DNA of 64,000 nt from Candidatus Kuenenia stuttgartensis (GTDB lineage Bacteria; Pseudomonadota; Alphaproteobacteria; SMXS01): the NCBI GenBank assembly GCA_943329845.2, contig CALQFM020000003.1, positions 1 to 64,000 on the forward strand. The letters are read 5' to 3'. Each line of letters starts with the position of its first letter. Within the stretch, counting starts at the first letter, position 1. The notes beneath the pieces are model-generated. The model was given only the letters and a program-made list of their open reading frames with translations, made no database searches and was not told where the DNA came from. Positions 11,920-55,303 of the stretch are shown one piece after another. The position numbers and the translations under genes are program-made.

Positions 11920-11971
11920 CCATGTCCGCCGCCTGGCGTTAGCGCTGAAGCCGCCGCATCGCCCCGCGCGG

Positions 11972-13492
11972 TCAGCCCGCCAGCAATGGGAAACTGACGC
12001 CAATGGCCCAGGCGAACGCAACGGCGCTGGCGATGCCGCCCACCAGCGGATGGCCGGTTCGCCGCCCGGCCCAGCGGCTGAACAGGCCGTAGACGGTGAA
12101 GAACACCACGATCACCGGCACGATGATCGCCAGGAAGAACAGCCGCTCGAAATCCAGCGCCACCGCCAGCCCCAGCGACACCAGCAACGCGAGCTTCGAC
12201 ACCGCATAGGCGCCGCGCGCCGCGCCGGCGCCGCCGGTCATCCATTCGTCCGCGGTGAAATAGGCCAGCGTGCCAGCCAGCAGAGCCAGGAGCAGCGGCA
12301 GGCGCGCCGCTCCCGGCACGAACGACGCCGCATAGGTGTCGATCGGCCAGACCAGCGCGACGAAAACATAGAGGATGACCGCTGCCGCCGCCATGGCGAG
12401 CACGCGCCAGCGCACGGGCGGCGATGCCGAGGGCGGCGTGCGCCTGCGTATCCACGCCAGGCATGCGAATGTCAGGATGCCGTACAGCGCGAAGTGGCAT
12501 GCCAGATAGTCGGCCACCAGCACCGGCAGGAAATGCGTCGGCAGCACCCGCAGCAGCAATGGCGTGGCGATGGCGGGCAGCACCAGCGGCAGCCACAGGC
12601 GCCGCCAGCCCAGCGACGCACCAACGGGCGGGTCCGACACCACCGGCAGCAGCCGAAACAGCGGCCGCGCCAGCAGCACGCAGCCGGCCAGCAGCAGCAT
12701 GATCCATGGGCCGCGCCGGTCCAGCCACGGCGGGCCGGACCGCGTGGTGCCGAATGACGCGTCGAGCCAGGCGACGGCCTCGCGCAGGCTGTCGCGGCTG
12801 TACAGCACGCTGAGATGTTCGGTGCCGGGGCTGAAAGATGCCCGCCTGCCGGTTCCCGCGGCCGGATCGCCGTAGGTCACGCCTTCGCGCGGCGCCCGCA
12901 TCACCAGGCCCACCGCGCGCAACCCCTCGCGCCGCAGCGTTCCTTCCCAGCCGCCGGTGATCACCAGCAGGTTGCGGGGGCTGTCGCGCGTCACCGCCGG
13001 CGAGAACATGGACACGGCGATGGTGGCCGCCACGTCCGGCGTCTGGCGGGCGAAGCGCACGACGATGTCCGACGCCATGGAATGGCCCAGCACCGCAAGC
13101 CGACCGTCGCCCAGCCGGCGCGCGTATTCGGCGACGCGGGCCGTCTCGCCGACCAGCGTCCGCGTCGCGCCCGTCTCCTCGGTGATGCTGCCGGTCAGCG
13201 GCGCCGGGTTGCGGCCATGGCCCGCGAAGTCGAAGGTCACCGCGGTATAGCCGTTGCGGGCGACCGTCACCGCGAAGGCCTGCATCAGCTGCCGCGACCC
13301 GGCGAAACCATGCGCGATCACCACCACGGGCGTCTTCGGGCCGCCGGCGGCCCGGTAGACGGTGGCGGGGATGTGCCCGATCATCACCCGTTCGACTGCA
13401 AGTCCGTCGGTGGCCGCTCGAAGCTGCCAAAGCGATGCCGCGATGGCCGCCAGCGCCGCCACGGCCCAGATCCGGTTCAGGTATTTCGCCAT
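11972..13492 (-). CDS. Alpha/beta hydrolase fused to a multi-pass membrane domain
   Basis: A 506-residue protein. After an N-terminal signal-anchor (IWAVAALAAIAASLWQL) residues 30-250 form an alpha/beta hydrolase: VVVIAHGFAGSRQLM (oxyanion HG), TFDFAGHG, nucleophile elbow GHSMAS, and an acid/His region near FSPGTEHLSV. Residues 265-505 hold about eight hydrophobic helices, including PWIMLLLAGCVLLARP, LLLALLAGTLAYFTADEW and FFLAIIVPVIVVFFTVYGLF. Hydrolase and membrane parts occur separately in most proteins; the combination suggests a membrane-embedded esterase or lipase. The substrate is unknown. It stands alone and is convergent with the small membrane protein gene. Confidence 0.75.
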   Translation of the reverse strand: MAKYLNRIWAVAALAAIAASLWQLRAATDGLAVERVMIGHIPATVYRAAGGPKTPVVVIAHGFAGSRQLMQAFAVTVARNGYTAVTFDFAGHGRNPAPLTGSITEETGATRTLVGETARVAEYARRLGDGRLAVLGHSMASDIVVRFARQTPDVAATIAVSMFSPAVTRDSPRNLLVITGGWEGTLRREGLRAVGLVMRAPREGVTYGDPAAGTGRRASFSPGTEHLSVLYSRDSLREAVAWLDASFGTTRSGPPWLDRRGPWIMLLLAGCVLLARPLFRLLPVVSDPPVGASLGWRRLWLPLVLPAIATPLLLRVLPTHFLPVLVADYLACHFALYGILTFACLAWIRRRTPPSASPPVRWRVLAMAAAAVILYVFVALVWPIDTYAASFVPGAARLPLLLALLAGTLAYFTADEWMTGGAGAARGAYAVSKLALLVSLGLAVALDFERLFFLAIIVPVIVVFFTVYGLFSRWAGRRTGHPLVGGIASAVAFAWAIGVSFPLLAG

Positions 13493-13607
13493 TGCGCGTG
13501 CTCCCCTGCGCCGCTGTACTTTCTACGTCTGCCAGCGCGCCCGGACCAATGGCTTGACGCGGTACCGGCATGGCGCGACGCTCTCGGCCTCGGGCGCGGG
13601 AGGGTGA

Positions 13608-14045
13608 ATGTCCTGGATCACGGACGAAATGCGCGGGATCGTCGGCAAGGTGATGCGCGAGGCGGTGTCCCATCCCATCGCGCTGTCCGACATCCGCAAA
13701 TGGGCCATGGCGGTGTACTGGCCGGAACCGCTGCCGCGCCAGTATTGGGACGAGGATTACGCCGCGCAATTCGGTGGCATCGTCGCGCCCGAGGACTTCA
13801 ACCCGTTCGCCTGGATGGCGGCCAAGCCGACGCCCGACGATCCGCCGGTCTCGATGAGCGCGTTCCGCGAGTCCGAGCTGGGGGTCGAGACGCCGGACTA
13901 CAAGGCGATCCTGCTGACCGAGATCCGCGCCCGGCACGGCGCGCCCATGCGCCCCGGCGACGTGATCCGCTGCGTCTGGAAGATCAGCGACTACATGGAA
14001 CGTGAAGGACGCATGGGCCTGATGCTGTACACAACCCTGTCCTAG
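13608..14045 (+). CDS. FAS1-like/MaoC N-terminal dehydratase subunit, truncated by amber codon
   Basis: 145 residues of the FAS1-like dehydratase family (N-terminal MaoC, hot-dog fold), with AVYWPEPLPRQYWDEDYA, RPGDVIRCVWKISDYMEREGRMGLMLYTT. Reading past the TAG at 14043, the same frame continues for 20 codons as EFTNQRGEWVRTLASVFARY before a TGA that overlaps the next start (TGATG). That tail is the conserved FTNQRGE strand of the family, so the TAG most likely replaces a CAG and removes the last beta strand. Such proteins pair with a MaoC subunit to hydrate enoyl-CoAs. As written, activity is doubtful. GGGAGGG precedes the ATG. Confidence 0.75.
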   Translation: MSWITDEMRGIVGKVMREAVSHPIALSDIRKWAMAVYWPEPLPRQYWDEDYAAQFGGIVAPEDFNPFAWMAAKPTPDDPPVSMSAFRESELGVETPDYKAILLTEIRARHGAPMRPGDVIRCVWKISDYMEREGRMGLMLYTTLS

Positions 14046-14108
14046 GAGTTCACCAACCAGCGCGGTGAATGGGTGCGCACCCTCGCCTCCGTCTTCGCGA
14101 GGTACTGA
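14046..14108 (+). pseudogene. Stranded 3' end of the dehydratase subunit
   Basis: Twenty sense codons and a TGA continue in frame after the amber stop of the preceding gene. They encode the FTNQRGEW strand expected at the C-terminus of FAS1-like dehydratases. Without readthrough this piece has no start of its own. Its TGA shares one base with the downstream MaoC start. Confidence 0.7.
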
Positions 14109-14524
14109 TGGGCGATCCCCGCACCCTCGCCGTCGGCGACGAGATACCAGCCTTCTCCCGCGAGGGCACGGTGCATCACTGGAACCGCTTCGCTGCGGTG
14201 AACTACGAGTTCGCCGGCCATCATTGGGACGACGACGTTGCGCGGCACGAGGGCTTTCCCGCGCCGTTCGCCATGGCGCCGCTGCTGCACGCCTACCTGC
14301 ATGCCATGCTGCGCCAGTGGGCGGGACCGTCGGCTCGGATCGCCGCCGTCGGCATCCGGCTGCGCAGCCCGTTCCTCAAGGGGTGCAGCATGACGGCCGG
14401 CGGCAGGATCACCGCCGTCCGGACGAAAGCGGGCGAGACGGTCGCCGAGCTGGAGCTCTGGATGGACGACGACACCGGCGCGCGACTGTCCACCGGGACC
14501 GCGACAGTGGCGTTTCCGTCATAA
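14108..14524 (+). CDS. MaoC-like dehydratase subunit
   Basis: A 138-residue hot-dog protein with the MaoC hydratase signature: FAAVNYEFAGHHWDDDVARHEGFPAPFAMAPLLHAYL, where the N/D-x4-H active-site pair would be Asp and His. The C-terminal half (IRLRSPFLKGCSMTAGGRITAVRTKAGETVAELELWM) is the typical closing sheet. It should act as the catalytic half of a two-subunit enoyl-CoA hydratase with the preceding protein. The ORF track start at 14069 is too early; the ATG at 14108 overlaps the ancestral stop of the upstream gene and gives the right family length. Confidence 0.85.
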   Translation: MGDPRTLAVGDEIPAFSREGTVHHWNRFAAVNYEFAGHHWDDDVARHEGFPAPFAMAPLLHAYLHAMLRQWAGPSARIAAVGIRLRSPFLKGCSMTAGGRITAVRTKAGETVAELELWMDDDTGARLSTGTATVAFPS

Positions 14525-54285: not shown

Positions 54286-54391
54286 CGAATTCTCCCCGTT
54301 GTCAAAGCAGGTCCGTTCATGGCCGATAAGGTGTGCCATGTCCAGATGCCAAAAGCGCGTGTGACTTTAAATCTCGAATTCAGCAAAATGT

Positions 54392-54419
54392 TTGGATTGC
54401 AGTTAGCCTTGTCTATCCT
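54392..54419 (+). promoter_or_regulatory. Predicted promoter of the AT-rich gene
   Basis: TTGGAT and TATCCT with a 16-base spacer, giving a start point near 54426 and a short leader. It lies at the left edge of the AT-rich segment and appears to have arrived with it. Confidence 0.5.
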
Positions 54420-54457
54420 TGCGACGAATGCGTTCGCTGAACTTGATGAGAGTTTCT

Positions 54458-55204
54458 ATGGTCGTAAAAGTAGCAATCGTTCAGTTCGAAAAGTCAGATT
54501 TTGAGAGTATGCCGCCTGTTGAGCGGGATTTCCTCATCATGTGTGGTCATATTTCCAACGAAATATTAATATTAGGTAAAACCATTATGGCATCTCAAAA
54601 TTTTCCAACTGAGAAGATTGCTCTTAGGATAGCTTTGGCCCAATCAGTATTTTTTGCACGCTTGCTTGCTGGAAAGCTTTATGAAGCGTGGGGTGCTCTA
54701 GATGCGCGATATTTTTCCACTCAGCTCTCTAAAAAATATGATGGCGTAATGGAGAAAGACGCTGAGATAGCTCTAGAAGGGTTGAGAAAGTATTTCGGAA
54801 AATCCACGAATGCAATTAAATTGATAAGAAATTCATACTCGTCTCACTATACAAAGGAGGATCTTCAGAGAGGTCTGGATGCGATATCCGAACCTGATGA
54901 GCTGTCTATGTATCTGTCGCAATGCAACGTTAACAGTTTTTATTACATGTCAGATATCATACTAAATCGCGTGATGTTCGATAAATTTTATAGAAGCGAT
55001 TTATCCACTGCTTTTAATAAAATGTACAAGGAAATAGTACAGGTGCAAGGCTGGATGATAGAATTTATGTCTCATGCTATAATGACAGTATCGGAAAAAT
55101 ACATCGATATATCCGAGGGCCGAGTCATGAAAGGCGAAAATAATTATTCGTCGTGTCCGAAGCCGGATGATCTTCGGATGCCAATTTTTATTGATATTTC
55201 CTAG
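54458..55204 (+). CDS. AT-rich helical protein with HEPN-like RN-x4-H motif
   Basis: A 248-residue protein of unknown function whose base composition (about 40% GC by eye) is far below its neighbours, and which uses codons such as ATA, TTA and AGA rarely seen elsewhere here. It is mostly helical: PPVERDFLIMCGHISNEILILGKTIMAS, RIALAQSVFFARLLAGKLYEAWGALD, then AEIALEGLRKYFGKSTNAIKLIRNSYSSHYTKED. The RNSYSSH sequence (Arg124, Asn125, His130) fits the R[N/D]-x4-H active site of HEPN ribonucleases found in toxin and defence systems. Similar unnamed proteins occur in scattered proteobacteria. Start 54458 has GAGAG upstream; 54446 is possible. Confidence 0.7.
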   Translation: MVVKVAIVQFEKSDFESMPPVERDFLIMCGHISNEILILGKTIMASQNFPTEKIALRIALAQSVFFARLLAGKLYEAWGALDARYFSTQLSKKYDGVMEKDAEIALEGLRKYFGKSTNAIKLIRNSYSSHYTKEDLQRGLDAISEPDELSMYLSQCNVNSFYYMSDIILNRVMFDKFYRSDLSTAFNKMYKEIVQVQGWMIEFMSHAIMTVSEKYIDISEGRVMKGENNYSSCPKPDDLRMPIFIDIS

Positions 55205-55239
55205 GTTTGCTTGCCTTTAACCGTGGCTAGAAATCTGTT

Positions 55240-55272
55240 GCCAACTCGATACCGGTTCCGTACCGAGTTGGC
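55240..55272. terminator. Long hairpin after the AT-rich gene
   Basis: GCCAACTCG and CGAGTTGGC arms with a 15-base loop that can pair further (TAC/GTA). There is no T-run. A 9-base direct repeat, TTAACCGTG, lies on both sides (55217 and 55284). It may be a terminator, or a mark of the insertion edge. Confidence 0.5.
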
Positions 55273-55303
55273 GCAGTCGCTGCTTAACCGTGAATGAAGG
55301 AGT

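Follow-up and report, generated by a model that had tools for sequence, protein, structure and literature searches.

The locus raises the question of why the small-subunit gene of a putative two-subunit dehydratase ends at a TAG while its reading frame runs on, undisturbed, to the start of the large-subunit gene. A first, sequence-only reading had offered three answers, i.e., that the enzyme has been lost, that the amber codon is suppressed, or that the base is wrong. The locus was examined within the whole stretch of DNA analyzed (64,000 nucleotides, here referred to as the window) and against related genomes. The source assembly spans 3.68 Mb in 107 contigs and is rated 100% complete. It was compared with six congeners, and 16 relatives were aligned to the small subunit, giving 17 sequences including its own.

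An in-frame TAG private to the source genome

The small-subunit open reading frame (ORF), on the plus strand at 13608-14045, encodes 145 amino acids and stops at the TAG at 14043-14045, codon 146. Past the TAG, the frame continues with 20 further sense codons, EFTNQRGEWVRTLASVFARY, up to a TGA at 14106-14108, whose last base is also the first base of the start codon of the MaoC-like ORF (ATG at position 14108). The arrangement first described from the letters alone, with a TAG end and a frame open beyond it to a TGA overlapping the next start, is thus borne out by the sequence. The features of the locus are as follows.

13608..14045, plus strand: small subunit, truncated, 145 aa; PF13452 FAS1-like dehydratase region; HadA/ChsH2-like partner
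14043..14045, plus strand: TAG, codon 146; Gln codon CAG in G1, G4, and G5
14046..14108, plus strand: 3′ remnant of the frame, 20 sense codons and then TGA; encodes the invariant Asn150-Gln151 and the final beta strand
14097..14102, plus strand: GCGAGG, Shine-Dalgarno-like (putative function), before the large-subunit start; kept in congeners
14108..14524, plus strand: large subunit, MaoC-like, 138 aa; ChsH1/PhaJ/HadB-like fold; frame intact

With the TAG read through, the small subunit would be 166 aa long. Its score against the PF13452 profile rises accordingly from 52.5 to 67.4 bits (both above the curated cutoff of 22) and its coverage from profile position 114 to position 131 of 132, the C-terminal strand of the domain being incomplete in the truncated protein. 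This gain in both score and coverage indicates that the tail is real homologous sequence.

Three congeners (G1, G4, and G5) carry the small-subunit gene in the same syntenic place, with 93 to 95% identity, and all have CAG at codon 146, one base from TAG, as had been suspected for the orthologues. In G6 and G7, a fourth congener and another member of the family with ~70 to 75% identity, the codon is CAC (His); the more distant aligned relatives are drawn from several phyla. Orthologues that likewise stop here, named beforehand as the observation that would contradict a lesion, were not found: codon 146 is a sense codon and the frame is open in 16 of 16 aligned relatives. The in-frame TAG is therefore private to the source genome. 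The stretch beyond it, initially singled out as a conserved family strand, is conserved, and N150 and Q151, just past the stop, are invariant in 17/17 sequences. On sequence grounds, the gene shows the disrupted frame with intact orthologues expected of a young pseudogene. The type of event proposed, a nonsense mutation, is an ordinary one. Nonsense-mutation pseudogenes of bacteria likewise have a single premature stop in an otherwise intact frame, with the relatives intact, and the present case does not differ from them, being notable only in that the lesion would be young.

The small-subunit gene finds no match in G2 and G3, two congeners with complete genomes, whose homologues of the large subunit are only distant (~30% identity). 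Judging from the absence of the small-subunit gene in these two genomes, it is dispensable within the genus. No second intact copy of it was found in the source assembly, where further PF13452 and MaoC genes are present.

Folds of the two subunits and likeness to known hydratases

The read-through product was modeled with AlphaFold2 from the 17-sequence alignment (mean pLDDT, 88.6); the model has strands at residues 101-110, 120-134, 137-150, and 155-165. According to this model, the stop at codon 146 cuts the strand at 137-150 and deletes that at 155-165 entirely. The original description of the damage as removal of the last strand is thus close to correct: it holds for 155-165, but the stop lies inside the strand at 137-150 and takes the end of that strand as well. 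Searching the PDB by sequence yielded no useful match for the small subunit. By structure, the closest PDB entries in terms of E value were those of HadA from the HadAB dehydratase, and the highest TM-scores (up to 0.65) were obtained with chains of the ChsH1-ChsH2 complex.

The large subunit scores 13.7 bits against PF01575 (MaoC_dehydratas), below the curated cutoff of 27, and its model has the MaoC/R-hydratase hotdog fold as determined by Foldseek (1iq6, PhaJ, TM 0.86; 4w78, ChsH1-ChsH2, TM 0.81). In place of the known D-x4-H catalytic motif it carries E34-x4-H39. Glu is nearly invariant at the place of the catalytic Asp among relatives of the large subunit (E-x4-H), and the His of this motif is replaced by Ser in two of them, L018 and L019, which are second copies.

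Two mycobacterial enzymes resemble the pair. The (3R)-hydroxyacyl-ACP dehydratase HadA/HadB of Mycobacterium tuberculosis likewise places a small partner next to a catalytic subunit of the MaoC-like kind, with hotdog folds. Its Asp36/His41 dyad is found in HadB only, while HadA lines the substrate channel and binds the acyl chain (PMC4491049). The pair differs from HadAB in that the identity over the structural alignment is only ~20%, the NCBIfam scores are far under the cutoffs (HadA [NF040624], 13.7 versus 180 bits; HadB, 19.3 versus 203 bits), and a FAS-II context is not seen beside it. The steroid enoyl-CoA hydratase ChsH1-ChsH2, also from M. tuberculosis, pairs a catalytic MaoC-type subunit with an inert one (PMC11321319). 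This complex is the best PDB match of the large subunit (TM 0.81, 24% identity) and is also matched by the small subunit (TM 0.65). In this case too, identity is low, the D-x4-H of the known dyad is replaced by E-x4-H in the large subunit, and the small subunit, even at its read-through length, is too short for the additional DUF35 domain; an aldolase gene was not noticed next to it. By analogy with both systems, we infer that catalysis falls to the intact MaoC protein and substrate binding to its truncated, inert partner.

The enzyme affected would accordingly be an enoyl-CoA hydratase or hydroxyacyl dehydratase of the two-subunit MaoC type, hit in its noncatalytic, substrate-binding subunit. 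Lacking the Asn-Gln turn that is invariant in the alignment, as well as its final strand, the truncated hotdog subunit would most likely be unable to fold or pair properly. A 145-aa subunit that still functions, its termination having merely shifted upstream, appears quite improbable: most of the domain is left, with a PF13452 score well over the cutoff, and the dN/dS is low (see below), but the lost part holds residues invariant in all 17 sequences along with the last strand of the sheet, and no relative terminates at codon 146.

Decoding of the TAG and translation of the MaoC gene

No tRNA with the UAG-reading anticodon CUA was found among the 41 tRNA genes of this draft genome, a set that may miss genes. 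The release factor 1 gene, prfA, is present. TAG is the stop of 21 of the 55 called genes in the window, and for most of the TAG-ending genes that have an orthologue in G1, the orthologue terminates at the same place. Genome-wide amber reassignment was rejected on the basis of prfA, the routine use of TAG as a stop, and the lack of a CUA tRNA among the 41 genes. The same observations make amber suppression at codon 146 unlikely. Production of some full-length small subunit by suppression would fit with the open and conserved frame past the stop and with the strong purifying selection on the gene, but in addition to the decoding evidence, the expected sign of recoding, a stop conserved in relatives, is absent, the stop being confined to the source genome. 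We consider this reading very improbable, and fainter still is the likelihood of a cryptic or near-cognate suppressor that reads the TAG at some level and gives rise to two forms of the small subunit. Among the three answers initially proposed, the data thus favor loss and disfavor suppression.

It had also been anticipated that early termination would harm translational coupling to the MaoC gene, and such damage is possible. The MaoC start retains its overlap with the TGA as well as its own GCGAGG, identical in the congeners, so that the gene may be translatable even if uncoupled. Neither a scan for promoters and terminators nor a search against Rfam returned anything at the locus.

Age of the stop and state of the enzyme

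Compared to the congeners, the small-subunit gene has no indel and no sign of decay other than the stop. Its dN/dS is 0.046 versus G1 and 0.058 versus G5, among the lowest values in the window. Strong purifying selection together with the lack of any other lesion implies that the stop either is very recent or is a base error. The changes unique to the window sequence comprise three replacement and 17 silent substitutions upstream of the stop and zero and one, respectively, downstream, with no excess of replacements relative to the G5 branch (Fisher p 0.43). Relaxed selection was rejected as a dating tool, the changes being too few to date the event. One further change downstream of the stop, D160A, affects a position occupied by Asp in each of the five nearest relatives. 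As two different Asp codons occur among the relatives, it was left out of the count of unique changes; it provides at most a weak hint of relaxed selection.

Across the window, which was the extent of the premature-stop check, none of the other called genes is disrupted relative to the congeners, and the small-subunit gene is the only one in which congener homology runs past the gene's own stop. In four other genes, the codon aligned to the stop is a sense codon in G1 or G5, but none of them shows coding homology past the stop. Apparent internal stops in other ORFs of the window were dismissed as opposite-strand or start-site artifacts.

An error in the consensus or assembly at base 14043, in which case the gene would be intact, is the main rival explanation, with a small though appreciable probability. 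It is in keeping with the otherwise strongly purified, lesion-free gene and with the fragmented, draft state of the genome. Errors in draft assemblies, however, do not usually consist of a single substitution, which counts against this explanation; in addition, the sequence is single copy in the assembly, so that a collapsed paralogue does not explain the stop, and the other called genes of the window have no lesion with respect to the congeners.

We therefore regard as the likely explanation a recent CAG-to-TAG nonsense mutation in the noncatalytic subunit, which would make the gene a young pseudogene and the enzyme probably inactive. A C-to-T change would recently have turned Gln codon 146 into a stop; the MaoC subunit is still encoded, and with its partner probably lost, hydratase activity would probably be lost too.

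The surroundings of the locus also differ from the congeners in several respects. The segment directly upstream of the small subunit, 11940-13519, contains a minus-strand ORF of 506 aa (11972-13492), serine-hydrolase-like by eye, for which the stretches examined in G1, G4, and G5 gave no match; its flanks are directly joined in G1 and G4. A 28-kb segment (20338-48624), bordered on each side by collinear sequence, is inverted compared to both G1 and G5, and ~0.9 kb at 54369-55302 is present in the source genome but not at the corresponding syntenic position of either of these two congeners.

Overall, the pair belongs to a poorly characterized HadAB/ChsH1-ChsH2-like family spread over several phyla. 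The annotated 145-aa product should be regarded as a fragment, and the adjoining MaoC gene probably has no working partner in the source genome. The stop in this dispensable two-subunit hydratase would thus reflect either a recent inactivation or one erroneous base and would matter little beyond annotation.
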